NCBI GenBank assembly: GCA_013349825.1
Contig: DUYW01000002.1
Span: 5-50,901 of the forward strand
Reading direction: 5' to 3'
DNA: 50,897 nt
From: Gammaproteobacteria bacterium
Lineage (GTDB): Bacteria > Pseudomonadota > Gammaproteobacteria > GCF-002020875
Of this stretch, positions 14,376 through 41,210 are shown piece after piece (positions within the stretch are counted from its first letter, which is position 1; every line of letters starts with the position of its first letter). A program made the translations under genes and the position numbers. The notes under the pieces are model-generated. The model made no database searches. It was given only the letters and a program-made list of their open reading frames with translations, and was not told where the DNA came from.

Positions 14376-14408
14376 GAGGGTCTCCAGGTTTCTTTGAAAG
14401 TTTTAATA

Positions 14409-15365: not shown

Positions 15366-15526
15366 AGACGTGACTGAACGGTATCCGTTGACTCTTTATT
15401 TGGTGTCATTATGCAGTATTGAGATGAAGGTTGGATGAAATTGTGTGGTCTGTCGTGATCGAATTTGATTATTTGATCAGGTATCATCTATTTAATATTT
15501 TTTAGTTGCAGGAGTCATCACCGCTG

Positions 15527-19473: not shown

Positions 19474-19480
19474 CGGTGTC

Positions 19481-19804: not shown

Positions 19805-19896
19805 GATCTTTCTCCTGTTATGTTGACGCTCTTTTGTCGGTGAGCGGCTTTATAGAAGAAAAAGCATAAAATATGCCAATCTGTAAATGAGTCCTT

Positions 19897-25965: not shown

Positions 25966-25967
25966 CG

Positions 25968-26333
25968 TTAGCTACGGCGAGTTGTTTTCTTCTTTGCGGC
26001 TCTCTTTTTGGTTGCAGATTTCTTCACGACAGCCTTTACTGTAGCCTTTTTTGTAGCTACTTTTTTGGGAGCCACTTTTTTCTTCGCGACACTCTTTTTA
26101 GGTGCGACGACTTTTTTCTTGCTGGCACTCTTCTTTTTTACAGCACTCTTCTTCACGACAGGCTTCTTATCGACAGACTTCAGCTGCTTGCGCTCTTCCT
26201 GCTTGGATAATTCAGCCAGTACAATGGCTTCCGCTTTTAGCCAGTGAGAAAAATCCTGTCCCAGAGGTTCTCCCTCCTCTTTCCAGAGTAGGTAGGCCTG
26301 TCGTTGGATGAGTGCAGTGAGTTCTTTGTTCAT
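25968..26333 (-). CDS. DUF2934-domain protein with lysine/alanine-rich tail
   Basis: 121 residues in two parts. Residues 1-45 ([31 protein letters not shown]) match the short DUF2934 helix pair. From about residue 53 on, it is almost wholly Lys, Ala, Val, Ser and Thr, with repeats such as KKSAVKKK and KKVAPKK, like bacterial histone H1-type tails. The tail would bind nucleic acid or other polyanions. It leads the glgB-glgX-malQ operon, with glgB starting 2 bases after its stop, so it is expressed with branching enzyme. Some DUF2934 proteins occur beside glycogen and trehalose genes, but no function is established that I know of. Confidence 0.82.
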
Positions 26334-26375
26334 GGGTTGGTATCTCCAAAATAGTGTTATATAACGATGAAAATT

Positions 26376-26440
26376 GTCTGTTGCTAATGTCTGTTGCTAA
26401 TGTCTGTTTCTAAAGTCTATTTCTAATGTCTATTTCTAAA
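26376..26440. repeat. Five tandem copies of a 13-bp repeat
   Basis: Units start at 26376, 26389, 26402, 26415 and 26428 and fit GTCTRTTKCTAAW. Copies 1 and 2 are identical; the others differ at one to three positions. It lies between the pgi stop (26452) and the start of the DUF2934-glgB operon (26333), so it falls in that operon's upstream region. Confidence 0.9.
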
Positions 26441-26451
26441 GAGGTTATTTA

Positions 26452-28116
26452 CTATCTCTTCTGAAGATATAAGTTGATCAGATTACGTGTTGAGCTGTCA
26501 TGCAGAGGTGTGGATTGGTCCAGTTCACCCCGTTCCAACTCATGCTGGATTCGTTTGGCAAGTGCTTTACCCAACTCTACACCCATTTGATCAAAAGAGT
26601 TCAGGTTCCAGATGATACCTTGGGTGAAAATTTTATGTTCATAGAGTGCAATCAGAGAACCCAGTGTTCTGGGGTTGAGGTGATCCAGTAGTAACAGGTT
26701 AGAAGGGGTGTTGCCGGGAAAAGTCTTGTAGCTGGCAAGCTGGGCATCAGCATCTGCTGGCAGATCTGCTGTTGCTTCATCCAGGCTCTTGCCATTCATT
26801 AGAGCCTCTGCCTGCGCCAGCATATTCGCAGTGAGGCCATCATGGTGGAAATCAAGCGAATGCTGTGGCTTGATGCTGCCAATAAAATCGACCGGTACGA
26901 CCGTCGGACTTTGGTGCAGGAACTGGAAAAAGGAGTGTTGACCATTGGAACCCAGTTCACCCCATAGTAGTGGTGAGGTAAGGTAGTCGACATGACAGCC
27001 ATCGCGGTCTATCGATTTACCGTTACTCTCCATGTCGAGTTGTTGGAGGTAGGCTGGGAAGAGTTCCAGAGCGGCTTCATAGGGGAGTACCGCATGGCTT
27101 TCTGCCTTCAGGAAATTACGGTTCCATACCCCGATCATTGCGAGTAGAACCGGAAGGTTCTGCTCCATTGGGGCTGTACGGAAATGGGTATCCATCGCAT
27201 GGGCACCGGCCAACAGTTCACGAAAACGCTCCATACCGATGGCGAGTGCAATGGAGAGTCCGATAGCGGACCATAAAGAGAGACGGCCCCCGACCCAATC
27301 CCAAAATGCAAAAACGTTTTCTGGCGCGATACCAAATGCTGCGGTCTTATCAAGAGCCGTTGAGATGGCAATGAAGTGTTGTTGAATCGACTCTTCACCT
27401 TTGCCAGATTCATGGCACGCTTGCAGGAACCATTTACGTGCACTATTTGCATTGGTAATGGTCTCCAGTGTGGTGAAAGTTTTGGAGGCGATCACAAACA
27501 GCGTGGTGTCTGCTGCAACAGACCGCAACACAGTGTCCAGCTCACGACCATCCAGGTTGGAGACGAAGTGGGAACGGATACCAGGATGCTGCCATGGATG
27601 TAGCGCATCGACCACCATTCTTGGGCCGAGGTCTGAACCCCCAATGCCAATATTGATAATGTCAGTGATCGGCTTGCCACTAAACCCAAGCCACTTGCCT
27701 TGATGAACCTTTTCGATAAAGTGGCCCATCTGCTCCAAAACCTGGTGAACCATGGGGATGGCATCCAGGTCATCAATTTGGAGTGTTTCTGAGGCGGGGC
27801 TACGCAGTGCTGTGTGTAGAACCGCGCGCTCTTCAGTATGGTTGATCTTTTCGCCGCTGAACATCCGTTCACGCCACTGAGTTAGCTCTGCCTCCTCAGC
27901 GAGTTGTAATAGCAGGTTACGTGTTTCTGTTGTCAGACGGTTCTTGGAGTAGTCAAGCAGTATGCCTTCAAAGGCCGTTGAAAAGTGGTCAAAACGATTC
28001 GGGTCATCTGCAAACAGTGTAGTCAGATGTTGGTGTTGAATCTGTGCTGCGTGTGCCTCCAGTTTCGACCATGCAGGGAGTGTTTTTGTATGTTGGGCGA
28101 GAGGTAATCCTTTCAT
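26452..28116 (-). CDS. pgi: Glucose-6-phosphate isomerase
   Basis: Pgi interconverts glucose-6-phosphate and fructose-6-phosphate. The 554-residue protein has the sugar-phosphate loop (NIGIGGSDLGPRMV), FVIASKTFTTLET, the VGGRLSLWSAIGLSIAL signature with the substrate Arg, the catalytic Glu region around GQHSFFQFLHQ, and the C-terminal Lys region SFDQMGVELGKALA. It is placed between the glgC gene (divergent) and the glgB operon (same strand, after the 13-bp repeats). Its location ties Calvin-cycle or gluconeogenic fructose-6-phosphate to glucose-1-phosphate and glycogen; a phosphoglucomutase gene is not in the window. Confidence 0.96.
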   Translation of the reverse strand: MKGLPLAQHTKTLPAWSKLEAHAAQIQHQHLTTLFADDPNRFDHFSTAFEGILLDYSKNRLTTETRNLLLQLAEEAELTQWRERMFSGEKINHTEERAVLHTALRSPASETLQIDDLDAIPMVHQVLEQMGHFIEKVHQGKWLGFSGKPITDIINIGIGGSDLGPRMVVDALHPWQHPGIRSHFVSNLDGRELDTVLRSVAADTTLFVIASKTFTTLETITNANSARKWFLQACHESGKGEESIQQHFIAISTALDKTAAFGIAPENVFAFWDWVGGRLSLWSAIGLSIALAIGMERFRELLAGAHAMDTHFRTAPMEQNLPVLLAMIGVWNRNFLKAESHAVLPYEAALELFPAYLQQLDMESNGKSIDRDGCHVDYLTSPLLWGELGSNGQHSFFQFLHQSPTVVPVDFIGSIKPQHSLDFHHDGLTANMLAQAEALMNGKSLDEATADLPADADAQLASYKTFPGNTPSNLLLLDHLNPRTLGSLIALYEHKIFTQGIIWNLNSFDQMGVELGKALAKRIQHELERGELDQSTPLHDSSTRNLINLYLQKR

Positions 28117-28290
28117 TGAGCAAGACCTGTAGGTTCAAAATAGTAATGTGAGAAAATCATATAGAGAGAGCAGTCTGTATGCCACTATTTTTCAGGTGAT
28201 TCATTAAAAAATTAATGACTGTTTGTTTCTGTTCCCTGTTATGATTTTCAACCATTGGATCAGCGTGGTTTTTGCAGAGGATGAGATGCG

Positions 28291-29562
28291 ATGTCGATTA
28301 TAGAAGATGAGTTAAGGCACACTTTGGCAGATGAGTTGAGACACACCTTGGCATTAGTCTTGGCGGGAGGAAGAGGGAGCCGTTTAAAACAGTTAACGGA
28401 AAAAAACTCCAAACCAGCAGTCCCTTTTGGAGGGAAGTTCCGGATTATCGATTTTCCACTCTCTAACTGTGTAAACTCAGGAATCAAGAAGATCGCGGTG
28501 CTGACGCAATATCGTGCGCACTGGTTGATTCTGCACCTGCAACGAGGGTGGAATTTTCTACGTCCGGCAATGAAGGAGTTTGTTGAAATTTGGCCGGCAC
28601 AGCAGCAGACCAACAAGGAGAGCTGGTATCTCGGTACTGCAGATGCAGTCTCCCAAAATATGGAGGCAATCACCTATCACCGACCACGTTATGTGCTGAT
28701 TCTGGCGGGCGATCATATCTATAAGCAGGACTATGCCCGTATGCTGGCAGAGCATGTGGATAATGGGGCAGATGTAACGGTCTCTTGTTTGGAAGTGAGT
28801 TGCAACGAGGCAACTGCATTTGGAGTAGTGGATGCAGATAATGATGAGCAGATTATAGGTTTTGTTGAAAAACCGGAAGATCCACCGACCATACCAGGGG
28901 ATCCTGACCACTCCTTCGTGAGCATGGGGATCTACATCTTCAATTACGAAATCTTGATGGAGGCACTACAACAGGATGATATGGATGCGGGATCCAGTCA
29001 TGATTTTGGAAAAGATATTATTCCCCGTCTGGTCACCAAATGTAAAGTGATGGCGCACCGTTTTGAGCGTAGCTCAGTCTCTGAGTCGGGTCCTTACTGG
29101 AGAGATGTGGGTACCCTGGATGGTTACTGGGAAGCCAATATTGATCTGACGACCATCAGCCCTGAGCTGGATCTCTATGATATGGAGTGGCCGATCTGGA
29201 CCTATCAACGCCAATACCCAGCTGCAAAGTTTGTTTTCAATAGAGAGGATCGTAGAGGTTATGCAGTGGATAGTCTGGTCTCAGCTGGCTGTGTGATTTC
29301 AGGTGGTGTGGTGGATAATTCACTGCTATTTACCGATAGTCGGGTCAACTCTTATAGTCAAGTGACCGATTCACTACTCTTACCTCACTCCAGTGTTGGA
29401 AGAAATAGCCGAATCAACAAAGCGGTCATCGGCTTTCGCTGCCACCTACCGGAAGGGTTGGTGGTCGGTGAAGATGCTGAGGCGGACTCTGAGCGCTTTT
29501 ATCGTAGTGAGAGTGGTATCACCCTGATTACGGCCTCGATGCTGGAGGATCTGAAGTTGTAA
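28291..29562 (+). CDS. glgC: Glucose-1-phosphate adenylyltransferase
   Basis: GlgC makes ADP-glucose from glucose-1-phosphate and ATP, the committed and allosterically controlled step of glycogen synthesis. The 423-residue protein has LVLAGGRGSRLKQLT, PAVPFGGKFRIIDFPLSNC, YLGTADAV, LILAGDHIYKQDY, FVEKPEDPP and GPYWRDVGTLDGYWEAN, followed by a left-handed beta-helix domain. The N-terminus is odd: residues 6-13 and 14-21 are the same octapeptide DELRHTLA, encoded by an imperfect 24-bp tandem duplication. The N-terminal segment in this family contributes to allosteric control. The gene is divergent from pgi with 174 bp between them. Confidence 0.96.
   Translation: MSIIEDELRHTLADELRHTLALVLAGGRGSRLKQLTEKNSKPAVPFGGKFRIIDFPLSNCVNSGIKKIAVLTQYRAHWLILHLQRGWNFLRPAMKEFVEIWPAQQQTNKESWYLGTADAVSQNMEAITYHRPRYVLILAGDHIYKQDYARMLAEHVDNGADVTVSCLEVSCNEATAFGVVDADNDEQIIGFVEKPEDPPTIPGDPDHSFVSMGIYIFNYEILMEALQQDDMDAGSSHDFGKDIIPRLVTKCKVMAHRFERSSVSESGPYWRDVGTLDGYWEANIDLTTISPELDLYDMEWPIWTYQRQYPAAKFVFNREDRRGYAVDSLVSAGCVISGGVVDNSLLFTDSRVNSYSQVTDSLLLPHSSVGRNSRINKAVIGFRCHLPEGLVVGEDAEADSERFYRSESGITLITASMLEDLKL
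28306..28353 (+). repeat. 24-bp tandem duplication inside glgC
   Basis: Two 24-base units (28306-28329 and 28330-28353) match at 21 of 24 positions. All three differences are synonymous, so both encode DELRHTLA. Confidence 0.9.
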
Positions 29563-29664: not shown

Positions 29665-30171
29665 ATGTTTGTTTTTGTAGCCTTGATGGTGATATGGATT
29701 CTGTTGACCGGCTCGTTACAGTTGGATGAACTTGCAGCCGGAGTATTTGCCGTGACGGCTGTGTCTGTAGTCATGCGGATGTTGATGGGCAGAGCGACGA
29801 CCCCTCCCATCCGTTTTACGCCGATGGCTGTGATTGCACTGATGCGATATCTCTACACCTTTACCATTGCGCTGTTGCGGGCCAATTTGGATATGGCACG
29901 ACGGGTACTGGACCCGCTGCTTCCAATCCATCCTGTTGTCGTGGAAGTTGAGACTTCGCTTCAATCACAGTTAGGACGTTTAATGCTTGCCAATAGTATT
30001 ACCTTGACTCCCGGTACCCTGACGGTTGATTTGAAAGGTGACCGGCTTCTGGTTCACTGGATTGATGGCTCTTCACTCCCCGCAGATCTCACCCCTGAGG
30101 CGCGTTGTCAGCAGGCAACGGAAGAGATTGCGGCACAATTTGAGCGTCATTTAAAAGGTTTTATAAAATGA
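29665..30171 (+). CDS. mrpE: Mrp-type cation antiporter subunit E (MbxA/MbhA-like)
   Basis: 168-residue subunit E of Mrp antiporters, homologous to the first subunit of archaeal Mbh/Mbx complexes. Two hydrophobic segments lie at about 2-40. The family-typical region LMLANSITLTPGTLTVDL is followed by a soluble C-terminal domain (LLVHWIDG...). First gene of the long cluster ending at 41210. Its stop overlaps mrpF by 4 bases (ATGA). Only 102 bp separate it from glgC. No strong promoter or Shine-Dalgarno sequence is evident there. Confidence 0.9.
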   Translation: MFVFVALMVIWILLTGSLQLDELAAGVFAVTAVSVVMRMLMGRATTPPIRFTPMAVIALMRYLYTFTIALLRANLDMARRVLDPLLPIHPVVVEVETSLQSQLGRLMLANSITLTPGTLTVDLKGDRLLVHWIDGSSLPADLTPEARCQQATEEIAAQFERHLKGFIK

Positions 30172-30452
30172 GTTTTTCACTGCTGCAGATGGTTGCACTG
30201 TTGCTGCTGGGTATGGCAGTAATACTGTCTGTGATCCGTTTCCTGATCGGACCCACTACGGCAGACCGTATTGTTGCAGCAGACACGGTTGCAGTGATTG
30301 CGACCGGAGGTATTGTGATGTTAACTCTGATGTTGGAAAGCGCTCTCTATCTGGATCTGGCGTTACTGTTTGGCATGCTCTCATTTATTGGCGTGGTGGT
30401 GCTGGCCCAGGTGATTACAGCGCCAGAGCAAGATCAGCAGGAGACCTCATAA
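30168..30452 (+). CDS. mrpF: Mrp-type cation antiporter subunit F
   Basis: 94 residues with three membrane segments, typical of MrpF/MnhF. The signature RFLIGPTTADRIVAADTVAV is complete. It is a small structural subunit of the ion-translocating module. It overlaps mrpE by 4 bases and ends directly before the GTG of the next gene. Confidence 0.92.
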   Translation: MSFSLLQMVALLLLGMAVILSVIRFLIGPTTADRIVAADTVAVIATGGIVMLTLMLESALYLDLALLFGMLSFIGVVVLAQVITAPEQDQQETS

Positions 30453-30746
30453 GTGAACTTTGTGGGAGATCTTTTCTTGCTGTTAGGGGCACTGTTTACC
30501 TTTCTGGGGGCCATGGGGCTGATTCGCATGCCGGATGTCTATAGTCGGATTCAGGCAGGTACCAAGGCAGTAACTCTGGGGTTGTTGTCGATTTTATTGG
30601 GTGTAGCTCTGCATCAGCCTGAGTGGATTCCAAAGTTACTGATCATCGCCCTCTTTGTGCTGTTGACCAATCCGGTGGGCTCCTCTGTATTGGCCCGTGC
30701 CTTTCTTCGTTCCGGTATCAAGCCGGTTAAAGGCGAGGAGAGATAA
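30453..30746 (+). CDS. mrpG: Mrp-type cation antiporter subunit G
   Basis: 97 residues with three membrane segments. The family signature GLIRMPDVYSRIQAGTKAVTLG is clear, followed by LLTNPVGSSVLARA. Start is GTG 30453, immediately after the mrpF stop. Corresponds to the third subunit (C) of archaeal Mbh/Mbx complexes. Confidence 0.92.
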   Translation: MNFVGDLFLLLGALFTFLGAMGLIRMPDVYSRIQAGTKAVTLGLLSILLGVALHQPEWIPKLLIIALFVLLTNPVGSSVLARAFLRSGIKPVKGEER

Positions 30747-30750
30747 CTGA

Positions 30751-31035
30751 ATGGATGGTTCTCTTTTTATGATCCTTGCTGCACTGCTATTGGTGGTGGT
30801 GATGTTAACTGCTGCGTTGGCAGCCCTGTTGTCAGAGAGTCATCTTGTGGCTGTGGTTTCCCTCTCTATTCTTTCATTGGGGTTGACGTTGCTTTTTGTT
30901 TTATTGAGAGCGCCCGATGTGGCGATGACTGAAGGGGTTGTGGGAGTTGGGCTTAGTAGCCTTATTTTTGCCCTTGCTCTGAAACGATTACGGCTCTATC
31001 GTTCTTCCACTCCTGCAGAGTCATGTGATGAGTAG
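30751..31035 (+). CDS. MbhD-like subunit (MrpA C-terminal piece, DUF4040)
   Basis: 94-residue membrane protein with three hydrophobic segments. LRAPDVAMTEGVVGVGLSS matches the MbhD/DUF4040 region found near the C-terminus of full-length MrpA. Here it is a separate gene, as in archaeal Mbh and Mbx operons. A large MrpA with its NuoL-like N-terminal part is absent, which argues that this cluster is an Mbh/Mbx-type complex rather than a plain Mrp antiporter. It overlaps the next gene by 8 bases. Confidence 0.88.
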   Translation: MDGSLFMILAALLLVVVMLTAALAALLSESHLVAVVSLSILSLGLTLLFVLLRAPDVAMTEGVVGVGLSSLIFALALKRLRLYRSSTPAESCDE

Positions 31036-31744
31036 ATCCAGCCGCTCCATGGAGTGGACTCCTCTGCTGTTTAGCGGGGGGCTGGCGTTCTTCCTGTTTG
31101 CCTTGTTTGCAGTGATTCCTTTTGGTGACACGGCCATGAAAGTGGGGACAATGATTCATCAGCAGGGAGGGGAGTTGGGCGCGGCCAATTTGGTGACTGC
31201 GGTTGTTTTAGGGTATCGGGGGCTGGATACGCTGGGAGAGCTGGCAATTCTGTTTGCCGCAGCAACCTCTGCGGGTCTGGTGCTCTCCAATACCCGGCAG
31301 CGCACAAGAAGTATAAAAAATAAGGGGTTGGGTGAGCTGTTTGAGTCGGCAATCTCTCTATTGATGCCACTGTTACTGTTGGTGGGGGTCTATATTGTCC
31401 TGCATGGTCATCTGACTCCTGGAGGTGGATTTCAGGGGGGGGTAGTGATTGCAGTAGCGCTCTTTCTACCGACACTGGCACGCGGTGAAATGGTCATCAA
31501 CCACCACTTGATCCAGTGGATTGAAGGGGGGGCGGGCGCACTGTTTATCTTGATTGGTGTTGCAGCCTTGATACAGGGGGCTGCATTTCTTCAACCGTTG
31601 ATGGCGGCGGGTGAAGTAGGGCGATTTCTCTCTGCCGGGACACTGCCGGTACTCTATCTATTGGTAGGACTCAAAGTAGGTGCAGAACTTGCTGCGTTGC
31701 TGGGTCACCTTGTGGAGGATGATGAGCCGGGAGTGCAGCAGTAG
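31028..31744 (+). CDS. MbhE-MrpB fusion subunit
   Basis: 238 residues. The N-terminal half resembles MbhE, the last part of MrpA (NLVTAVVLGYRGLDTLGELAIL). The C-terminal half is an MnhB/MrpB domain (LLLLVGVYIVLHGHLTPGGGFQGGVV). In archaeal Mbx/Mbs operons these are usually two neighbouring subunits (E and F), so a fusion is notable, although MrpA/B joins occur elsewhere. About six to seven membrane segments. I use ATG 31028 rather than GTG 31025. It ends in a one-base overlap with the next start. Confidence 0.85.
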   Translation: MSRSSRSMEWTPLLFSGGLAFFLFALFAVIPFGDTAMKVGTMIHQQGGELGAANLVTAVVLGYRGLDTLGELAILFAAATSAGLVLSNTRQRTRSIKNKGLGELFESAISLLMPLLLLVGVYIVLHGHLTPGGGFQGGVVIAVALFLPTLARGEMVINHHLIQWIEGGAGALFILIGVAALIQGAAFLQPLMAAGEVGRFLSAGTLPVLYLLVGLKVGAELAALLGHLVEDDEPGVQQ

Positions 31745-32196
31745 TGTTGGCCGCCATTCTCTATGTAGGTGCAGTTAGTCTGCTGGTCATTGGCTTGGCC
31801 GGCATGTTGCTTTCAAGTCACCTGTTTAGAATGTTATTAGGGTTGGTGATCGCTGAGGCGGGTGCCAATTTACTGTTGGTGTTGGCTGGGTATCGTTGGG
31901 AGTCGGCAGCACCCATTTGGGAGAGTGGTGCCTATCCGCAGCTGATGGTCGATCCAGTCCCGCAAGCGATGGTGTTGACGGCCATTGTTATTGGTGTCGG
32001 CATTCAGGCACTGGCAATCGCATTACTGGTACGTATTCGGCAACAGACTGGTTCACTGCAACGCGATATCGTACGAGAGCAGTTGGAGCAGGACCTTGAT
32101 CTTGAATTGGGGGTCAAATTGCCAAGTTCAATGCACGCCCCGTCAGGAGAAGGGCCGCTGCTGAGCGGGACAAGAGGGGCTGGTAATGAGCAATAG
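31744..32196 (+). CDS. mrpC: Mrp-type cation antiporter subunit C (NuoK-like)
   Basis: 150-residue NuoK-like subunit with three membrane segments and a cytoplasmic tail. Family features are SSHLFRMLLGLVIAEAGANLLL with the membrane Glu in LVIAEAG, and DPVPQAMVLTAIVIGVGIQALAIALLVRI. The start is GTG 31744 overlapping the previous stop by one base (TTG 31747 is possible). Corresponds to subunit G in archaeal Mbh/Mbx. It overlaps mrpD by 11 bases. Confidence 0.9.
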   Translation: MLAAILYVGAVSLLVIGLAGMLLSSHLFRMLLGLVIAEAGANLLLVLAGYRWESAAPIWESGAYPQLMVDPVPQAMVLTAIVIGVGIQALAIALLVRIRQQTGSLQRDIVREQLEQDLDLELGVKLPSSMHAPSGEGPLLSGTRGAGNEQ

Positions 32197-33643
32197 CCTG
32201 GCCTTGGTGATTGCGCTACCACTGCTTGCGGCATTCCTGCTCCAGCCGTTGGCACAACAGTTGGGTGTTGGACGTGAACAACGTTCTGTAGCGATTCAGT
32301 TGTATGCGCAGCTGACAATTGCGGTGACCTTATGGATTACATTGATGTTAGGCAATGGTGTTGAGCAGCAGCCGCTCTCTGTGATGATGGGTGGCTTTTC
32401 AGCCCCGATGGGGATCAATCTCTACCTTGATCGTCTGAGCCTGCTGTTACTGGTTGCAACACAGTTGGCGTTGCTGTTGTTATGGCCGGCTGATGCAACG
32501 CCCCGTATTCATGCATTAATGTTGCTGTTATCAGCCTCCTCTATGGGGCTGGCGCTCTCAGGAGACCTCTTTAATCTCTATGTATTCTATGAACTGCTTG
32601 CGGTCGCAACTTTTGGTCTGGTGGCTGCTAACAGCAGCCGTTCAGCCCCCCTGATCTCATTTCGTTATCTGTTAATCAGTGGGCTGGGGTCGGTCCTGGC
32701 CCTGAGCGGAATTGCGCTGATCTATAGTCATACAGGTAGCCTTAACCTGGCAGATATTTCAGCAACCTTGCAGCATGGAGACGCAGAGTTGCCACTGGCG
32801 GCCTTCATACTGATTCTGTTGGGTATTGGAGTTAAGGCAGAACTGTTTGCAGTTAATGGCTGGGTACCAGAGGTTTATGCCATTATCTCACCCCGGCTTT
32901 CAGCGTTGCTGGCGGGGGTGGTTTCCAAGCTTGCTGTGGTGGTGATTGTTCGCGTGTTATTGATGTTGTTTCCGCATCCTGAGGCCGCACAGGTACTGTT
33001 GGTACTAGGTATTTTGGGTGTGATCAGCGGTGAGCTGGCCGCGTGGAGGGCACAGGATCTGCGTCGTATGTTGGCCTACTCATCGATTGGACAGCTGGGG
33101 ATGATCTTTATTGCCTTCTCTCTCTCTCTGGAATTTGGAATGCTGATGGGGCTGTTGCTCAGTCTGCACCATATGGTGGTCAAGCCCGGACTGTTTATGT
33201 TAACAGCAGGCAAGTCGAAACGTTGGCATATGGCCCTTTTTGTCCTCTTTGCCCTCTCTCTGGTTGGTGTTCCTCCTCTGCCCGGTTTTTGGGTCAAACT
33301 CTCTTTGTTGACGGGGCTGGTCGAGGCGGGGGGGGCGTTGAATCAGTTGGCGCTGATTGTCTTCCTGGGCGCAACGGTGATTGAGGCAAGTTATCTGTTT
33401 CGAGTGTTGCAAAATACACTACCCAATCCACCAGCGGTTGATGAGGGTCATTTGACGGTGGGCTGGAATGGTCTGGTTGGAGTGCTGCTCGGAGGGGTGT
33501 TGGTTGTGACGACCTTGTCAGTTGATCCCGTATTGGAACAGTTAAAACAGATTTCATCTCAGGCCGGGGATCGAAACCTGTTGATTTCAAGCGTCGTTAC
33601 TCCATCCGCTGAACAACAGATGGTTGTGGAGAGAGACAAGTAA
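32186..33643 (+). CDS. mrpD: Mrp-type antiporter subunit D (NuoM/N-like)
   Basis: 485-residue antiporter-like subunit with about fourteen membrane segments. Ion-path residues are visible: Glu in NLYVFYELLAVATFG, Lys in GIGVKAELFAVNGWVPEVY, the YSSIGQLGMIF helix, and the His-Lys pair in LHHMVVKPGLF. It keeps the full set expected for a proton- or sodium-conducting subunit. Corresponds to subunit H of Mbh/Mbx. The stop overlaps the next start in a TAATG junction. Confidence 0.92.
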   Translation: MSNSLALVIALPLLAAFLLQPLAQQLGVGREQRSVAIQLYAQLTIAVTLWITLMLGNGVEQQPLSVMMGGFSAPMGINLYLDRLSLLLLVATQLALLLLWPADATPRIHALMLLLSASSMGLALSGDLFNLYVFYELLAVATFGLVAANSSRSAPLISFRYLLISGLGSVLALSGIALIYSHTGSLNLADISATLQHGDAELPLAAFILILLGIGVKAELFAVNGWVPEVYAIISPRLSALLAGVVSKLAVVVIVRVLLMLFPHPEAAQVLLVLGILGVISGELAAWRAQDLRRMLAYSSIGQLGMIFIAFSLSLEFGMLMGLLLSLHHMVVKPGLFMLTAGKSKRWHMALFVLFALSLVGVPPLPGFWVKLSLLTGLVEAGGALNQLALIVFLGATVIEASYLFRVLQNTLPNPPAVDEGHLTVGWNGLVGVLLGGVLVVTTLSVDPVLEQLKQISSQAGDRNLLISSVVTPSAEQQMVVERDK

Positions 33644-35508
33644 TGGAGATCAATACGCTCGATTTGTTGGCTCTGATCTCCCTGGTTACCGTAGCAACGG
33701 CACTATTAGTGGGTGGTCAGGGGCGGGGAGGGTGGCAGTTGTCGCTGCTTTATCTGCTGCAATTAGTCGTTGTAGCCTCAATGGTGATGATGGCTGGTGG
33801 TGAAGGGATCATCTCTACACTACAGTTTTCAACTGTTGGAGAATCGATTGGCTGGAGACTGGATGGGCTGGGGCTCTATTTTCTGTTAATTACTGTGGGT
33901 ACAGCGGCTTTTGTCTCATTCTACATGGCCGGTCCCTGGGGGGAGGCGTATCAGCGTGATGGAGGCTCCCTGCGCTGGTTACAGGTAGCGCTAGCGACCA
34001 ATGTATTTACCATGTTGTTACTACTGGCCAGCGGTGATCTGCTCTCACTCTTTATTGGTTGGGAATTGGCGAGTTGGGCAGCCTTCTGGATGATGGCGTT
34101 GGCGGGAGGAATAGCACTGAAGGTGGCTCTGCGCTACCTGATCTATGCAATGGTGGGTGCGATGATGGTATTTGCACTGATTGTGATTCTGTATGGTCAA
34201 GCAGGATCTTTTGGTTTTGATGAGATACGTGAAGCCTCTGTACAGATGGAGCGTGGTACCACAATTCTTGTATTGCTACTGACTGTTGCAGGTTTTGGTA
34301 TCAAAATGGGGCTGCTCCCCTTTCATCTGTGGCAGGCTCCGGCATATGCGGAGACACCGGGACCCGGTTCCGCTTTTTTAGGAGCAATCTCCTCCCGCCT
34401 AGGGCTGTTTGCCATTCTTCTGGTGTTGTTTAGGGTGGTTGATGGGGCCTGGATTGAGCTCTATCTGGGCTTTATGAATCCACAGACGCTACTGGCCTGG
34501 ATTGCGGTAGCAACCATTATCTTCCCAACCTTTACTGCGATGCGCCAGAATGATGCACGTCAGTTGCTGGCCTGGCACGGGATTGGTCAGGGTGGTTATA
34601 TGCTGCTCGGTATTGCGATGATGGATCCGTTGGGGGTGGCGGGAGGGATGCTCCATATCTTCAACCATGCAACCTATCAGGCAGCCCTTTTTCTGGCGGT
34701 GACAGCGGTGATCTACCGTACTCAAACTTCGGATTTGAACCACCTTGGAGGGTTGGTGGTGCGTATGCCGCTGACGTTTGCAACCATGCTGGTGGGGATT
34801 ATCGGCCTTGCAGGGTTGCCACCAATGAATGGTTTTGTCTCAAAATGGTTGGTCTACCGCTCTCTTTTGGAGCAGGGGGAGGTGCTGCTGTTTGTCGGTG
34901 CGGTGATTGGAACGCTGGGTACCATTCTGTCGGTCTATAAATTACTTCACAACACCTTCCTCGGCTCTCTTCGTCTGGAACATCAAGCGGTACGTGAAGT
35001 CCCCATCACTATGTGGATGCCCATGATTCTGCTCTCAGGACTGATTCTGTTGACCGGTATCTTCCCCGGAGTCCCATTGCAGTGGGTTGCGGAGGCCGCA
35101 GCGTCAATTGGGTTGCCAATGCCGCAGTTCAATCTGGGCGGAGTGATTGCTGAGGGTGGCAGTCTCGATATGCGGGTTATTAGCGGTGTACTGTTGAGTG
35201 GCTTTGCCATTGCCGCGCTGATTTTCTATGGCGCAGGTTCAAGTCGTCGTGTGAATCCACTGGATAATTATGCAGGAGGACACTTCCTCTATGCGAGTAA
35301 CCGCTACCACTACAGCAATAATTTTTACGCAGGGTTGATGCATTTGATCAAGCCTTGGTACCGGGGGATTTTTGAGCGACTAGAACAGATTATACTGCTG
35401 TTATTGGCCGTTATCGCCGATCTGCTACAGGGGCTCTATCTACAGCGACAACCGGGGAGAGTGGCTCTGGTTGTGTTGGTGCTGCTACTCTGGTGGAGCA
35501 CACTATGA
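33643..35508 (+). CDS. Second antiporter-like subunit (MbxH'/HyfB-like)
   Basis: 621 residues with about fifteen membrane segments, related to NuoL/M and to the second MrpD-like subunit of archaeal Mbx/Mbs complexes. Conserved sites are Glu in SLFIGWELASWAA, Lys and His in GIKMGLLPFHLWQAPAYAETPGP, and WHGIGQGGYML. In the broken helix where most relatives have HAxxKAxLF it reads NHATYQAALF, so the ion-path lysine is Gln. A long C-terminal region (from about 540) carries RVNPLDNYAGGHFLYASNRYHYSNNF, as in Mbh-type subunits next to the NuoH-like protein. ATGA overlap with the next gene. Confidence 0.88.
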   Translation: MEINTLDLLALISLVTVATALLVGGQGRGGWQLSLLYLLQLVVVASMVMMAGGEGIISTLQFSTVGESIGWRLDGLGLYFLLITVGTAAFVSFYMAGPWGEAYQRDGGSLRWLQVALATNVFTMLLLLASGDLLSLFIGWELASWAAFWMMALAGGIALKVALRYLIYAMVGAMMVFALIVILYGQAGSFGFDEIREASVQMERGTTILVLLLTVAGFGIKMGLLPFHLWQAPAYAETPGPGSAFLGAISSRLGLFAILLVLFRVVDGAWIELYLGFMNPQTLLAWIAVATIIFPTFTAMRQNDARQLLAWHGIGQGGYMLLGIAMMDPLGVAGGMLHIFNHATYQAALFLAVTAVIYRTQTSDLNHLGGLVVRMPLTFATMLVGIIGLAGLPPMNGFVSKWLVYRSLLEQGEVLLFVGAVIGTLGTILSVYKLLHNTFLGSLRLEHQAVREVPITMWMPMILLSGLILLTGIFPGVPLQWVAEAAASIGLPMPQFNLGGVIAEGGSLDMRVISGVLLSGFAIAALIFYGAGSSRRVNPLDNYAGGHFLYASNRYHYSNNFYAGLMHLIKPWYRGIFERLEQIILLLLAVIADLLQGLYLQRQPGRVALVVLVLLLWWSTL

Positions 35509-36401
35509 TGGTTGTCGATCTGTTGATTGAGCTATTGCTGATGCCGTTGGTCGCTTTTCTGGTTGGCTTGGTGATGGTGTTATGGATGCGTCGTTTGGGA
35601 GCCAGGATTCAACGCCGGGTAGGACCTCCGTTTTTACAGCCACTCTATGATGTGGTGAAACTGTTTGGCAAAGAGACGCAGATTTCTCATGGCGTACTGC
35701 ATGATATTGGCATCATTATGGCGATGGGTGGCTATATTGCAGCGGAGACCCTGTTGCCGGTGCCTGGAATGGATGGTGTGGCCGCCTATGGAGGCATCAT
35801 TACCCTCACCTATCTGATGATGATCCCATCCTTAGGGCTTGCGTTGGGCGTTGGGCAGTGCGCCAACCCGAATGGTTCAATCGGTATCTCACGTGCATTG
35901 ACTGCGATGCTCGCTTATGACGTTCCATTCGTGATTGTGGTTTTTGGTGTGGCTTATCACGCAGGAAGCGCTAATCTGATTGAGATTATCGATGGGCAGC
36001 AGCAGGCGGGGGTTGCAGGGTGGGGGCTGTTTGAGATGCCGCTATTGGCAATTGCCGGACTGATTACGCTGCAAGGATCACTGGGTAAACAGCCTTTTGA
36101 GGTCTATGTGGCCCCGGCGGAGATTGCAACCGGGCCAATGGTGGAGATGGGGGGGAAATATCTAGGGGGGCTGTTTGTGATGCAGGCCTTCCAGTTCTAT
36201 ACGGCAACAGTTTTATATGTATCGCTGTTTCTGGGCGGAGGAACAAACTGGATTGATCTGCTGTTGAAAAGTTTTCTGGTACTCACCATTCCGGTGAGTG
36301 TTGCCTACCTGTTTCCCCGGTACCGCACTGAGGATCTGGTAAGGCTGCTTTGGAAGTGGCCGGTTATGATTGGATTATTGGGGGTGGCATTTGTCGTCTA
36401 G
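35505..36401 (+). CDS. NuoH/HycD-like membrane subunit (MbxM-like)
   Basis: 298-residue subunit with about eight membrane segments, the link between membrane arm and peripheral arm in complex I and group 4 hydrogenases. RRLGARIQRRVGPPFLQPLYDVVKLFGKE is the signature first loop; the conserved acidic loop reads KQPFEVYVAPAEIATGPMVE. It is closer to HycD/MbhM (about 300 residues) than to NuoH in length. ATG 35505 gives an ATGA overlap with the previous stop and has GGAG upstream. A GTG at 35493 is also in frame. Confidence 0.9.
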   Translation: MMVVDLLIELLLMPLVAFLVGLVMVLWMRRLGARIQRRVGPPFLQPLYDVVKLFGKETQISHGVLHDIGIIMAMGGYIAAETLLPVPGMDGVAAYGGIITLTYLMMIPSLGLALGVGQCANPNGSIGISRALTAMLAYDVPFVIVVFGVAYHAGSANLIEIIDGQQQAGVAGWGLFEMPLLAIAGLITLQGSLGKQPFEVYVAPAEIATGPMVEMGGKYLGGLFVMQAFQFYTATVLYVSLFLGGGTNWIDLLLKSFLVLTIPVSVAYLFPRYRTEDLVRLLWKWPVMIGLLGVAFVV

Positions 36402-37050
36402 TAATGGAAATATTTTGGCGCGCGTCTTTGATGAGTTGACCCGCTTCTGTCAGGCGCGTTCACTTTTTATCCTCCACTACTGTACGGGGTGTGGTGCGAT
36501 TGAATTGCCTCCTGTGATGACCTCGCGCTTTGATATGGAGCGACTCGGGGTCTCACCGATGGTGACACCCCGTCAGGCAGATATTCTGCTGATCACCGGA
36601 TATGTCTCGATCAAGACCTTGAAACGGGTCATGCTCACTTATGAGCAGATGGGTAGTCCCAAATATGTGATTGGGATCTGCTCTTGTACCGTCAATGGTG
36701 GAATGTATTGGCAAAGCTATGCTACAGCCAAGAAGCTGGATGAGTATCTTCCGGTGGATCTCTATATTGCAGGTTGCATGCCTCGTCCGGAGGCGGTGAT
36801 CAGTGGTCTGAGAACGTTAATGGGCAGGATTGAGCGAGGAGAGGCGGAGAGCTGGAAAGAGTATTATCAAAATTATGATTACTATCTGGGTAATCAGCAG
36901 AAACTGTTTGGTGATCAGTGGCAGACTCCGGTTGATGTGATTGGCGAAGCAGAACAGTATCAGTTGCTGGGGCCGGGTACCCTGGGTGAACATACCGAGT
37001 TATTGGTCAAGGCACAGCACCCTCTGCAGCCACTGGAGATGCGGTTATGA
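36391..37050 (+). CDS. NuoB/MbxJ-like iron-sulfur subunit
   Basis: Small [4Fe-4S] subunit (about 219 residues) that holds the proximal cluster, N2 in complex I. Cysteines are placed as in group 4 hydrogenases: HYCTGCGAIELPP (CxxC, unlike the adjacent CC of true NuoB), GICSCTVNGGM and AGCMPRPEAVISGL. The cluster is thus probably bound. A C-terminal extension of about 60 residues (from YYQNYDYYLGNQQKLFGDQ) is unusual for the family. The most likely start is TTG 36391, with GGGGGTG upstream, which overlaps the previous stop; TTG 36370 is also possible. ATGA overlap with the next gene. Confidence 0.85.
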   Translation: MSSSNGNILARVFDELTRFCQARSLFILHYCTGCGAIELPPVMTSRFDMERLGVSPMVTPRQADILLITGYVSIKTLKRVMLTYEQMGSPKYVIGICSCTVNGGMYWQSYATAKKLDEYLPVDLYIAGCMPRPEAVISGLRTLMGRIERGEAESWKEYYQNYDYYLGNQQKLFGDQWQTPVDVIGEAEQYQLLGPGTLGEHTELLVKAQHPLQPLEMRL

Positions 37051-37691
37051 GTCTGGATGGTTTTACCCCCTGGTTACAGGCCTTGACGCAACGTATCGAG
37101 GGGTTGGTGATCAGCGGCTCAGATCTGGAGAAGCGTCGTACCCGGATTGATCTGCCTGCGGATCACCTGTCGAGCTTGTTGGAGGCGGCAAAAGGGGAGT
37201 TTGGCTTTGTCCATCTCTCGGCAATCTCCTGTGTGGACTGGATTGATGTGGGGGAGTTTGAGTTGGTTTACCACCTCTGGTCCTATGAGCAGAACCAATT
37301 ACTCTCGATCCATATTCGTGTGCCCAGAGAACCGGGACGTTACCAGTCCGTGGTGGATCTCTATCGTCCTGCCGGTTTCTTTGAGCGGGATATTCATGAG
37401 ATGTATGGCCTCTACTTTGAGGGGGCACTCGATATGGAGAAATTTATCCTGACCGAGTGGAACGGACCACCACCGATGCGTAAAGAGTTTGATAGTGAAG
37501 CCTTTGTTGAAGAGACCTTTAGCTGGCAGGAATACAATCCGCAATGGTTGCAAGAGATTGTTGCAGCAGGTGGTGGAGTCGTCACACCGCCTTCACAACA
37601 GCGCTTCAGTCAGCGTAAAGGCATAGAGGCACCCTGGGGCGCCGAAGCGAGACGTCCATTGAGTGATGAAAATACGGAGGATCAGCGGTGA
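37047..37691 (+). CDS. NuoC/MbxK-like subunit
   Basis: 214-residue peripheral-arm subunit of the 30-kDa NuoC family, which scaffolds the NuoB- and NuoD-like proteins. FVHLSAISCVDWIDVGEFELVYHL matches the usual fold start, and YRPAGFFERDIHEMYGLYFEG is the family signature (normally ANWxERExxDxxGxxF). A C-terminal tail of about 50 residues is variable. ATGA overlap with the previous gene; GTGA overlap with the next. Confidence 0.88.
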   Translation: MSLDGFTPWLQALTQRIEGLVISGSDLEKRRTRIDLPADHLSSLLEAAKGEFGFVHLSAISCVDWIDVGEFELVYHLWSYEQNQLLSIHIRVPREPGRYQSVVDLYRPAGFFERDIHEMYGLYFEGALDMEKFILTEWNGPPPMRKEFDSEAFVEETFSWQEYNPQWLQEIVAAGGGVVTPPSQQRFSQRKGIEAPWGAEARRPLSDENTEDQR

Positions 37692-38830
37692 GAGCAGAAA
37701 ATTACCAGGCGATCAACCATCCACCGAGTCACGCCTTTGAACTCAATTTTGGCCCCAACCATCCGGGTATTGAAGGCAATTATGCGCTGCAGGTGAAGGT
37801 AGAGGGGGATACCGTGGTGCAGGCTCATGCCGATGGGGGATACCTCCACCGCGGATTTGAAAAGTTGATGGAGCAGCGACTGTGGATCCAGAATATTGCA
37901 CTGGTTCCACGGATCTGTGTACCCGACCCCTCTCCTATGGAGGTCTGCTACTCGATGGCAGTGGAACAGATTGCAGATATCGAGGTGCCAGAACGGGCGC
38001 AGTGGGTGCGAGTGCTGCAGCTGGAACTTTCGAGGATTGCGGCTCATCTATTCACCTTTGGTGGACATGCGGCAACCACGGGGATGTACAGTCCAATGTT
38101 CTGGGGAGTGGCAGATCGAGACCTGATTCTGGATCTGTTTGAGGAGTTTACCGGGGGGCGTGTCTACAGTATCTATAACCTTCCGGGAGGTGTGCGGCGT
38201 GAATTACCGGAAGGTTTTTTGCAACGGGTAAGCAAGATGATGGACTATATTGAGTCTCGTCTTCAGGATTATGATGACCTCTTCTTTGCCAACCGGGTCT
38301 TTGTGCGTCGAGCCAAGGGGGTGGGAGTTCTGCAGCAGGCAGAGGCGCTGGAGATGGGGGTCACCGGCCCTAATCTGCGAGCGACCGGACTGCCCTTTGA
38401 TGTGCGCAGAGATGACCCCTACCTGGTTTACGAACAGCTTGATTTTGAAGTTCCGGTTGAAGAGGCGGGAGATGCCTGGGCGCGAACTCTGGTGCGCCGT
38501 GCGGAGTTGGTCGAGAGTCTTAAAATTGTACGTCAAGTGGTCAAGGCACTGCCCGATATTGGTGGAGCACTGCGTAGTGAAATACCCAACCCTCTGGCGT
38601 GGAATGTTCCTGCCGGTGAAAGCTATGCACGGGTGGAATCCTCTAAAGGGGAACTGGGCTACTATGTGGTATCGGATGGTGGTGAAAAGCCATGGCGCGT
38701 CCATGTTCGTGGCCCCTCATCGATGCATGCGGTACAGGTGCTGGAGTCACTGGTCACTGGAGGACGGATTGAGGATGTGGCGCAGACCATGTTCTCGTTA
38801 GATGCCTGTCCTCCGGAGGTAGACCGGTGA
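37688..38830 (+). CDS. NuoD/MbxL-like large subunit with half-lost NiFe motifs
   Basis: 380-residue catalytic-type large subunit. FGPNHPGIEGN, GYLHRGFEKLMEQR and the RIAAHL helix place it in the NuoD/NiFe large-subunit superfamily. The two NiFe sites are each half kept: Cys77 in PRICVPDPSPMEVCYS (first position of RxCxxC, with Asp80 in the second), and Cys374 in SLDACPPEVDR (first position of DxCxxCxxR, with Glu377 in the second). A functional NiFe centre needs four cysteines, so hydrogenase activity is unlikely. True NuoD proteins normally lack both cysteines, so this is nearer the Mbx/Mbs/Ehr groups. Start GTG 37688, with GGAGG upstream. Confidence 0.9.
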   Translation: MRAENYQAINHPPSHAFELNFGPNHPGIEGNYALQVKVEGDTVVQAHADGGYLHRGFEKLMEQRLWIQNIALVPRICVPDPSPMEVCYSMAVEQIADIEVPERAQWVRVLQLELSRIAAHLFTFGGHAATTGMYSPMFWGVADRDLILDLFEEFTGGRVYSIYNLPGGVRRELPEGFLQRVSKMMDYIESRLQDYDDLFFANRVFVRRAKGVGVLQQAEALEMGVTGPNLRATGLPFDVRRDDPYLVYEQLDFEVPVEEAGDAWARTLVRRAELVESLKIVRQVVKALPDIGGALRSEIPNPLAWNVPAGESYARVESSKGELGYYVVSDGGEKPWRVHVRGPSSMHAVQVLESLVTGGRIEDVAQTMFSLDACPPEVDR

Positions 38831-38878
38831 ACAGGTTGTGTAAGTGCTTTGGTGCGATTATCTGTTCAGGAGGACGCT

Positions 38879-40693
38879 ATGGTTAAGTATGATGATGAAG
38901 GTAGCCTGCTGCGTCCCCTGCGTGCGCTCTCCTTTCTGACAAAACCTGCAATCACTGAGCCATTGGTACCTCGTCCGGCAGCAGAAGGCTATCGTGGTTT
39001 TCACCTCAATGAACATCAGCGCTGTGTAGGTTGCAGTAGCTGCCAGAAGATCTGTGATAATGCTGCGATTACCATGATCGAAGTCAGTGAGTTAGCGAAT
39101 GATAAACTCAACGGTATTCGCAATCTGCGTCCAGCAATTGACTATGGTCGCTGTTGCTGGTGCGCACTCTGTGTTGATATCTGTCCAACCGGATCGTTGT
39201 CACTCTCCAAGGAGTATGTCCACACCTGTACTCAAGAGGATATTGATAGTTATTTTATGATGCCTGGTGAGGTGGGGATGCATGGCACCTTTGTTGGCAA
39301 AGGGTGGCAGAAGAGTGAAACCTCTGACCTGCTGGACCTGCAGCGCAAACCGATGGGTGAACGTCCGGCAGCGCAGCGTATCGATAGTTTTGATGAAATT
39401 GTTAATGGGTTTAGCGCACAACAGGCGGAGGCAGAGGCCTCACGTTGTGTACAGTGCGGCATGTGCCATGATGCCTGTCCGACCGGGATGGATGCACCTG
39501 AGTATATTCGCTCTATTTTTGAGGGTGAACTGGAGCAAGCGGTACGTTGGATCTATCAGACCAACCCCTTCTCTCATGTCTGTGGCAGAGTTTGTACCCA
39601 CCGTTGTGAAGATGCCTGTTCAATCGGAGTGCGAGGGACTCCATTGGCTATCCGTTGGCTCAAGCGGTATGCGATGGATCATGTCTCCCATCAGCGTGTT
39701 TTACAGATTACTCAAGAGCAGAAACCCTCTCACTTATCCGCGCGCAAGATTGCTGTAGTGGGTGCAGGCCCTGCGGGACTGACTGCTGCGTGGGATCTGT
39801 CGCGTATGGGGCACCAGGTGGTGGTTTTCGAGGCCCGTAAAAATCCTGGAGGGATGCCACGTTATGGGATTCCGGAATACCGACTTCCTTATGAGATGCT
39901 GGATCGGGATATCGAGGTGATTACAGCGATGGGGGTGGAGATCCGTTGTGGTGTAGAGATTGGTAGTGAAATCACGGTGGATCAGCTGCATCAAGAATAT
40001 GATGCTGTGGTGCTGGCGATTGGCCTTCATCTGGGACGCTCCACCCGCATACCCGGTTCAGACCATGAACATGTGAAAAAAGCGGTGGATCTACTGCGTC
40101 AGGTTACCGATGAGGGGAGTATTGAGGTACCTCAGGAGGTGGTGGTGATTGGGGGGGGGAATGTGGCGATGGACATTGCCCGAACCGTTGCACGGATGCA
40201 GAAGCAGCAGTGGGGTGAGGTACGCACAGTGGTAACTGCATTGGAGGATCAAGAGAATTTTCTGGCAGACCCGGAAGAGGTTCGAGAGGCTGCTGAAGAG
40301 GGGGTGCTGATCTGCCCGTCTCGGGGACCTCAGGCCTGTGTGATCGAAAATGGCCAATTGCAGTCACTGAAAACCTGGGGAGTCTGCTCAATCTTTGATG
40401 AGTCAGGTCGTTTTGCGCCCCACTTTGATGAAAACGATGAGCAGTGCCATGCAGCGGGAATGGTGATTGAGGCAATTGGTCAAATGGCTGATTCAGAAAT
40501 TCTGCTGGGAGATGAAATTACAGAGAGACTGGAGTGGAATCGAGGTCGATTGCAGATTGATGAAAATTGCAGAACTTCAGAGTCTTGGCTATGGGCCGCA
40601 GGAGACTGTGTGAATGGGCCTGATGTGGTCCATGCAGTTGCCGACGGACATCGAGTAGCATCCAGTATTGATGAGGTATTGAAACATGCGTGA
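38879..40693 (+). CDS. Ferredoxin-flavoprotein fusion: NuoI/MbxN-like plus GltD/SudA-like oxidoreductase
   Basis: 604 residues, from an ATG with a strong AGGAGG upstream. Residues about 40-110 hold two [4Fe-4S] sites of NuoI/MbxN type (Cys49-52-55-59 and Cys92-95-98-102). Residues about 180-250 are the dicluster domain that precedes GltD-type flavoproteins (Cys190-193-196-200; Cys235-239-243-247). From about 290 there is an FAD fold (AVVGAGPAGLTAAWDL), the GGMPRYGIPEYRLP segment, an NAD(P) fold (VVVIGGGNVAMDIA, near 425) and the closing FAD motif LWAAGDCVNGPDVVHAVADG. GltD, NfnB and SudA use such domains to move electrons between NAD(P)H and ferredoxin or sulfur compounds. Here it replaces the ferredoxin subunit of an Mbx-type complex, so NAD(P)H is a likely partner. 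Confidence 0.92.
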   Translation: MVKYDDEGSLLRPLRALSFLTKPAITEPLVPRPAAEGYRGFHLNEHQRCVGCSSCQKICDNAAITMIEVSELANDKLNGIRNLRPAIDYGRCCWCALCVDICPTGSLSLSKEYVHTCTQEDIDSYFMMPGEVGMHGTFVGKGWQKSETSDLLDLQRKPMGERPAAQRIDSFDEIVNGFSAQQAEAEASRCVQCGMCHDACPTGMDAPEYIRSIFEGELEQAVRWIYQTNPFSHVCGRVCTHRCEDACSIGVRGTPLAIRWLKRYAMDHVSHQRVLQITQEQKPSHLSARKIAVVGAGPAGLTAAWDLSRMGHQVVVFEARKNPGGMPRYGIPEYRLPYEMLDRDIEVITAMGVEIRCGVEIGSEITVDQLHQEYDAVVLAIGLHLGRSTRIPGSDHEHVKKAVDLLRQVTDEGSIEVPQEVVVIGGGNVAMDIARTVARMQKQQWGEVRTVVTALEDQENFLADPEEVREAAEEGVLICPSRGPQACVIENGQLQSLKTWGVCSIFDESGRFAPHFDENDEQCHAAGMVIEAIGQMADSEILLGDEITERLEWNRGRLQIDENCRTSESWLWAAGDCVNGPDVVHAVADGHRVASSIDEVLKHA

Positions 40694-41210
40694 AGGGGAT
40701 TCCGATAAGAGAGAACGCCTGCAGCAGGCGAAGAGTTTGGCTGAGGTATTGGAAGTTGCGATCCTGTTTGAAGAGGCAGCGGCCAATTTCTATCAACTGC
40801 AATTGGAGCGGGTGAGTAAACCACTGCGTTGGCTGTTGGAGTCCTTGGTGGATGAAGAGCGTCAACACAGTGCGAAATTGCAGGCACTGCGTGATGATCC
40901 TGTATTCGAAGAGCAGCTGGAGACACGTATAGAGGTGTCTCCAGTTGATCCTCAATTTTCAGATGCGATACAGATTCAAGCACTGGATGAAATAGTCGAT
41001 GACCAGGCAATTTTACAATACGCTCTGGGGCGGGAACAGTTGGCAATGGATCAATACCGAAAACTGGCTGAAATGACCGAGGAAGGCGTCATACAACAGC
41101 TATTTCAGTGGTTGGCGGATGAAGAGTTGCACCATAAAGGGTATTTGGAACGGCGCTACTATGAGTTGGTGCATCGTGGAGGTGGAGCTTCCTCTCGCTA
41201 CGACTTCTGA
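40686..41210 (+). CDS. Ferritin-like diiron protein (rubrerythrin type)
   Basis: 174-residue four-helix protein with the ligands of a diiron site: Glu29/30 in LFEEAAANFY, Glu58xxHis61 in DEERQH, Glu117 in GREQLAMDQY and ExxH in DEELHH (146-150). There is no rubredoxin CxxC domain, so it is an erythrin-like variant. Such proteins reduce peroxide or respond to oxygen. Its ATG lies 8 bases inside the end of the flavoprotein gene, so the two are coupled and it is the last gene of the complex operon. It may protect the oxygen-sensitive clusters; this is inference. Confidence 0.85.
   Translation: MREGDSDKRERLQQAKSLAEVLEVAILFEEAAANFYQLQLERVSKPLRWLLESLVDEERQHSAKLQALRDDPVFEEQLETRIEVSPVDPQFSDAIQIQALDEIVDDQAILQYALGREQLAMDQYRKLAEMTEEGVIQQLFQWLADEELHHKGYLERRYYELVHRGGGASSRYDF

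Follow-up and report, generated by a model that had tools for sequence, protein, structure and literature searches.

A fourteen-gene operon (positions 29665–41210, forward strand) in a 50,897-nucleotide stretch of a Gammaproteobacteria bacterium genome (contig DUYW01000002.1; hereafter, the window) encodes, with strong support from sequence comparison, an Mbx/Mbs-type complex related to the MBS of Pyrococcus furiosus. The analysis establishes its family, subunit set and cluster ligands, the loss of the NiFe and quinone sites, the fusion of a NuoI-type arm to a GltD/NfnL-like oxidoreductase, and its co-occurrence with dsr genes. With moderate confidence, we infer the substrate, the cofactor, the ion and the direction: the complex would act as a reversible, ion-coupled oxidoreductase between NAD(H) (nicotinamide adenine dinucleotide) and sulfane sulfur, and would serve mainly the anoxic respiration of stored or cellular sulfur.

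In PDB searches, the NuoD-like large subunit (37688–38830, 380 residues, MbsL equivalent) matches P. furiosus MbsL (6u8y_L) with 396 bits, versus 266 bits for NuoD and 134 bits for MbhL. An MBS chain is also the top PDB match for the NuoB-like and NuoH-like subunits, the second antiporter subunit and the MbhE–MrpB fusion, and MbsN outscores every other NuoI-type chain as a match to the NuoI part of the thirteenth gene. In a maximum-likelihood tree of 97 rows, the window large subunit falls with P. furiosus MbsL and bacterial Mbx proteins in a single clade (support of 100/99), within which it groups with the sulfur oxidisers, and the Spirochaetota are adjacent. The NuoD of the same genome, Thermus Nqo4, E. 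coli NuoCD and the Mbh, Hyc and Hyf proteins all lie outside this clade. The MbsL, MbhL and Nqo4-type references in the tree are partial-length sequences taken from HMMER alignments, and the exact position of P. furiosus MbsL inside the clade is unsure because MbhL, E. coli NuoD and MbsL sit on long branches. A preliminary description of this DNA had called the complex Mbx/Mbs-like and had suggested such a tree. Its assignment is borne out by the position of the window protein outside both Nuo and Mbh/Hyc/Hyf, by the PDB matches and by the active-site residues.

These residues lie in two subunits. In the NuoB-like protein (36370–37050, MbsJ equivalent; top PDB match 6u8y_J, 226 bits), the proximal 4Fe-4S ligands C41, C106 and C136 are kept, gaps apart, across 82 aligned sequences. 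The second cysteine position of complex I is a glycine in 80 of the 82 rows (the others being one gap and one cysteine) and corresponds to G42 in the window. A three-cysteine proximal cluster is the sulfur-reducing site of P. furiosus MBS, whose hydrophobic chamber is described as able to accommodate polysulfide (PMC7684303). In the large subunit, two of the four NiFe cysteines remain (C77 and C374, both present in 43 of 43 sulfur-oxidiser rows), with D80 and E377 at the other two positions. Where complex I has the quinone-site residues His38 and Tyr87 (Nqo4), the window protein has E29 and V78. Because the NiFe cysteines are incomplete and the quinone His/Tyr pair is lost, the complex is neither a hydrogenase nor likely to be a quinone reductase. 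Ordinary complex I is ruled out by the tree position and the lost quinone residues, and a Hyf/Hyc/Mbh hydrogenase by the tree and the retention of only two of four NiFe cysteines. A second gammaproteobacterial type (loci L031, L032 and L033) has tyrosine in place of C374 and mostly alanine in place of C77.

The thirteenth gene (38849–40693, 614 residues; TTG start, with ATG 38879 as an alternative) was initially described as a ferredoxin-type subunit, which is wrong. Its N-terminus carries a NuoI-type pair of 4Fe-4S motifs, and the remainder consists of a two-cluster 4Fe-4S domain, a flavin adenine dinucleotide (FAD) fold and an NAD(P)H fold of the GltD/NfnL/SudA family (Pfam Fer4_7, Fer4_20 and Pyr_redox_2). 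The protein scores 794 bits against NCBIfam PRK13984, under the family cut-off of 946, and its PDB matches include NfnL (220 bits) and MbsN (70 bits). All 16 of its 16 cluster cysteines are invariant in 69 homologues. With this NuoI–GltD/NfnL fusion, the complex does possess a pyridine-nucleotide module. In a 369-genome sample of the class, the fusion (counted at E ≤1e-110) was found in 17 genomes, which are the same 17 that hold the large subunit (Fisher p ~1e-29); because its occurrence matches that of the large subunit in 17 of 17 cases, the fusion is very probably part of the complex.

The cofactor preference of the module is suggested by its NADP-binding loop. This loop reads YRRR in Bacteroidota, Thermotogota, Caldifarciminota and others, and TALE/TSLE-like, with loss of YRR, in the sulfur-oxidiser clade and its sister clade of Spirochaetota. 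Because kinetic work on the related DsrL links YRR to the use of NADP(H) and a lack of YRR to that of NAD(H) (PMC7596348), the fused module of the sulfur oxidisers is predicted, by this reasoning, to be NAD(H)-specific. Of the electron partners first proposed, NAD(P)(H) is thus retained, and narrowed to NAD(H) by the YRR loss, and quinol is rejected as a donor, both quinone-headgroup-binding residues of complex I being missing. Two further observations concern this module. At locus L033 (G218:C43), the large subunit is 48% identical to that of the window, yet the fusion is sulfur-oxidiser-like (693 bits, TAME loop); an exchange of modules is possible. In Thermotogota, WOR-3 and an uncultured bacterium (L093, L104, L107 and L114), the Mbx operon has a second, stand-alone NfnL-like gene on its downstream side, accompanied by an NfnS-like gene at L093, L104 and L107.

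The fused module also brings up a different function, that of a ferredoxin:NAD+ oxidoreductase or transhydrogenase-like pump, in which the GltD and NuoI parts would pass electrons from NAD(H) to ferredoxin or back, with the proximal cluster serving only as a redox sensor. NfnL-like modules are able to exchange electrons with ferredoxin. The conservation of a catalytic-type three-cysteine cluster and of the chamber residues argues against a mere sensor, and the genome already holds two Rnf-like clusters. MBX was originally proposed to be a ferredoxin:NADP+ oxidoreductase (PMC3035292, PMC6981617), but this proposal has been superseded in P. furiosus by the MBS work (PMC7684303), and such a pump is considered very improbable here.

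The gene order of the operon is found again in over 20 loci of Gammaproteobacteria and Betaproteobacteria, as well as in Spirochaetota, Bacteroidota, Thermotogota and other groups, which excludes a chance arrangement and answers the earlier suggestion of a survey among sulfur-oxidising Gammaproteobacteria. A scan of named genomes placed relatives at 64–81% identity in Candidatus Thiodiazotropha, Sedimenticola, the Escarpia and Lamellibrachia symbionts, Parasulfuritortus, Hydrogenophilales, Thiohalocapsa, Lamprocystis, Thiomargarita and Parabeggiatoa, and the Spirochaetota rank next. The operon is intact in most of these relatives; in Thiomargarita, Parabeggiatoa and other Thiotrichaceae (L069, L071–L075 and L077), it is dispersed, with the NuoB-C-D genes apart from the rest. 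No homologues were found in viral contigs. Within the class sample, dsrA is present in 17 of 17 carriers versus 119 of all 369 genomes (p=2e-9, a value that ignores kinship); the carriers come from 15 families. The genome of the window itself holds dsrABEFHCM and RuBisCO. The sulfur-oxidising, autotrophic host envisaged in the preliminary description, and the tie of the complex to sulfur oxidisers, are supported by these results. The three dsrA matches of this genome (contigs C33, C35 and C95) score ~460 bits, versus roughly 600 bits in the majority of the other carriers; its Dsr is therefore divergent and may have been duplicated.

The complete association with dsrA in the sample could also reflect a different substrate, with the open iron attacking glutathione persulfide or a protein persulfide or trisulfide (TusA, DsrC) and so linking the complex directly to Dsr. 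MBS chemistry targets disulfide-like bonds generally, and Dsr organisms possess DsrC and DsrEFH. However, Bacteroidota, Thermotogota and Spirochaetota carry the same core in loci that contain no Dsr, so Dsr proteins are not general partners. The hydrophobic chamber of MBS is, moreover, described as suiting polysulfide (PMC7684303). A direct Dsr link is, on balance, improbable.

For the preferred NAD(H):sulfane-sulfur reaction, electrons would move between NAD(H) and FAD, between FAD and the two 4Fe-4S sites of the GltD part, and from there to or from the two 4Fe-4S clusters of the NuoI part and the proximal three-cysteine cluster. In a chamber between NuoB, NuoD and NuoH, sulfane sulfur (as polysulfide or persulfide) would take electrons from, or give them to, the open iron of the proximal cluster. 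Electron transfer would be coupled to H+ or Na+ movement through the Mrp module and the two antiporter-type subunits, in a reaction that can probably run both ways. Its likeliest net role would be to let NADH from storage compounds respire stored or cellular sulfur without oxygen, and at high ion-motive force and high sulfide, reverse reduction of NAD+ may be possible.

Sulfur reduction in anoxia is ranked as more likely than reverse electron flow. The homologue with a biochemical test, archaeal MBS, reduces sulfur (PMC7684303), T. maritima mbx goes up with S0 (PMC9431562), and respiration of stored sulfur in anoxia is reported for Beggiatoaceae (PMC4959497), whose relatives are among the carriers, as are Chromatiaceae, Thiodiazotropha and tubeworm symbionts. 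In the Riftia symbiont, Mrp-Mbx is co-expressed with anaerobic and reverse tricarboxylic acid (rTCA) cycle functions, has neighbours in common with rTCA, hydrogenase and sulfur-globule genes, and does not group there with sulfide oxidation (Sox, rDsr) or the Calvin cycle (PMC11636981). Energetics are undecisive for direction: the gap from NADH to S0/HS- is estimated, from assumed potentials, at 80–170 mV at 10 mM to 10 uM sulfide, which would suffice for ~1–2 ions per 2 electrons in the forward direction.

In reverse electron transport, the ion-motive force would lift electrons from sulfide or persulfide, via the proximal cluster, to NAD+ for CO2 fixation and so bypass the quinone pool. The carriers are dsr-bearing sulfur oxidisers, the genome of the window holds RuBisCO, and the reaction is energetically easy at 1–2 or more ions per 2 electrons. 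In addition, the NAD(H) signature, versus NADP(H) in most other lineages, parallels the NAD+-reducing DsrL-1 (PMC7596348). Against these points stand the activity of MBS as a sulfur reducer (PMC7684303), the expression grouping in the Riftia symbiont just described (PMC11636981) and the occurrence of the NAD(H) signature in spirochaetes. The genome could also already be served by its nuoA-N-like genes (nuoF and nuoD lie within an apparently full, separate nuo cluster on contig C34) and its two Rnf-like clusters; it additionally encodes two NiFe hydrogenases. Reverse transport is therefore retained as a tentative alternative. A fuller version, in which the sulfur-oxidiser complex runs backwards from sulfide or persulfide, across a site-differentiated FeS cluster, straight to NAD+ independently of quinone, supplies reductant for CO2 fixation and evolved from a sulfur reductase by gaining the NAD(H)-specific module, is regarded as doubtful.

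Several observations weigh against the preferred role in NADH-driven anoxic sulfur respiration. Because the Spirochaetota sister clade shares the loss of YRR, this loss is not specific to sulfur oxidisers, and it would equally suit NAD+ reduction, as in the oxidative DsrL-1. With two pumps and an Mrp module to drive, pumping in the forward, NADH-driven direction may be too weak. An extra cysteine, C104, is present in most sulfur-oxidiser NuoB copies two residues ahead of a cluster ligand, and its closeness to the cluster could change the cluster chemistry. Among dsr genomes, group 3b hydrogenase shows no significant enrichment in carriers (9 of 17 versus 35 of 102, p=0.18). FNR-type boxes upstream of mrpE are in only weak excess over shuffles, and among the gammaproteobacterial loci no flanking genes are widely shared and none hint at anoxia. 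The glycogen block directly upstream (11595–29562: pyruvate phosphate dikinase (PPDK), glgA, glgP, malQ, glgX, a glgB-like branching enzyme, pgi and glgC) does not accompany the complex elsewhere, as no glg genes occur at the other Mbx loci; a functional link to these genes through conserved neighbourhood is thus unsupported. Finally, no measured activity of any bacterial member was found in the open-licence literature.

The fourteen-gene operon is real and complete. Its open reading frames all lie on the forward strand, most overlap by a few bases and the gaps are at most 18 base pairs, in agreement with the layout reported beforehand. Pfam assigns the order MrpE, MrpF, MrpG, MbhD, MbhE+MrpB fusion, MrpC, MrpD, second antiporter, NuoH, NuoB, NuoC and NuoD, again as first described. 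The first three genes encode MrpE-like (29665–30171, 168 residues, MbsA equivalent; Pfam MNHE, 5e-33), MrpF-like (30168–30452, 94 residues, MbsB equivalent; MrpF_PhaF, 1e-11) and MrpG-like (30453–30746, 97 residues, MbsC equivalent; PhaG_MnhG, 1.2e-26) proteins. They are followed by an MbhD-like subunit (30751–31035, 94 residues, MbsD equivalent; MbhD, 3.4e-18) and the MbhE+MrpB fusion (31025–31744, 239 residues; MbhE and MnhB), which matches the likewise fused MBS chain E (235 residues; 6u8y_E) with 134 bits over residues 21–232. Next are a MrpC/NuoK-like subunit (31744–32196, 150 residues; Oxidored_q2, 1e-20), a MrpD-type antiporter subunit (32186–33643, 485 residues, MbsH equivalent; Proton_antipo_M, 1.6e-37) and a second antiporter subunit with a C-terminal extension (33643–35508, 621 residues, MbsH' equivalent; top PDB match 6u8y_X, 618 residues). 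The NuoH-like membrane anchor (35493–36401, 302 residues, MbsM equivalent) has 6u8y_M as its top PDB match at 197 bits, the runner-up scoring 69, and the NuoC-like subunit (37047–37691, 214 residues, MbsK equivalent) lies between the NuoB-like and NuoD-like genes (Complex1_30kDa, 1.3e-25). The open reading frame list and the Pfam results for the operon genes contain no MrpA and no NuoE/F/G, so the earlier statement that a full MrpA and these subunits are absent was correct. The last gene (40686–41210) encodes a 174-residue rubrerythrin/ferritin-like diiron protein (Pfam Rubrerythrin, 1.6e-11), whose diiron-type residues E29, E58, H61, E117, E147 and H150 are conserved at 95% or more within the clade of sulfur oxidisers. 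This protein probably shields the oxygen-sensitive clusters.

Variations were seen at other loci. At L031, L032 and L033 (gammaproteobacterial) and L119 and L120 (Fermentibacterota), the antiporter subunits are apparently fused into one open reading frame of 970–1150 residues, with no separate MrpD. At L082, L083, L089 and ten further loci, most of them in Bacteroidota, a dihydroorotate dehydrogenase-like gene, identified by eye, lies just upstream of mrpE. On one contig labelled Sulfurovum (L103), the large subunit falls with Bacteroidota in the tree, which indicates a binning error or transfer. Elsewhere in the window, an FKBP-type isomerase is fused to a rhodanese domain (9942–10697).

Two aspects of the complex are already known, namely a mention of Mrp-Mbx in the Riftia symbiont (2024) and an archaeal MBX linked to a SudA-type NADPH dehydrogenase (2010). 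For Mbx in sulfur oxidisers, the open-licence literature yielded the Riftia paper only. In the same literature, outside which subscription reviews of Mbx evolution may contain earlier accounts, no description was found of the NuoI–GltD fusion as the standard bacterial form, the change from an NADP to an NAD signature, the ferritin-like fourteenth gene or the restriction to dsr genomes within the class. An ion-pumping enzyme that joins NADH to sulfane sulfur would be a concrete candidate for anoxic respiration of stored sulfur, for example in Beggiatoa (PMC4959497). If reverse flow were true, the complex would give chemoautotrophs, animal symbionts included, a new way to bring in reductant. The fusion also indicates that a complex I relative can become coupled to NADH by means other than NuoE/F/G.

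Among known systems, P. furiosus MBS (formerly MBX; PDB 6u8y) shares with the window complex the subunit set and order, the MbhE–MrpB fusion, antiporters H and H', the three-cysteine proximal cluster, the two residual NiFe cysteines and the missing quinone residues. It differs in having a 208-residue MbsN fed by ferredoxin, whereas N is fused here to a GltD-type NAD(P)H module, and in MbsL, which has T and E where the window large subunit has E29 and D80; the ferritin-like gene is an addition here. The stand-alone, ferredoxin-docking MbsN is absent here, and N is fused to GltD/NfnL across the bacterial Mbx loci. Since a stand-alone MbsN typifies P. furiosus MBS rather than the whole Mbx/Mbs clade, the fused N marks a subtype. 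The dehydrogenase-linked MBX of Desulfurococcaceae (Thermosphaera aggregans, PMC3035292), compared by its description only, likewise combines an MBX operon with a SudA/NfnL-type oxidoreductase and was proposed in 2010 to be an NADPH-linked reductase of sulfur or protons. There, the oxidoreductase is described as a gene that takes the place of fdhA; in the window operon, it is joined to the NuoI arm in one protein, is predicted to be NAD(H)-specific and occurs in sulfur oxidisers.

The 'putative Mrp-Mbx complex' of the Riftia symbiont Endoriftia (2024, PMC11636981) is very probably the same complex, because close orthologues were found in tubeworm symbionts (L050, L051 and L053). That paper names it in passing, with its direction unknown, and the accessible passages say nothing of the NADH module, the change of cofactor or the broader distribution. 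Complex I (Nuo/NDH-1) has in common the NuoB/C/D/H/I core and antiporter subunits, but the window complex lacks NuoE/F/G and the quinone residues and lies outside the NuoD clade. DsrL resembles the thirteenth gene product as a GltD-type FeS flavoprotein tied to dissimilatory sulfur metabolism, and its oxidative form without YRR uses NAD(H). The domains of DsrL run from an N-terminal FeS part through FAD and NAD(P)H parts to a C-terminal ferredoxin domain, in contrast to the N-terminal NuoI domain here, and DsrL partners DsrAB and belongs to no membrane complex.

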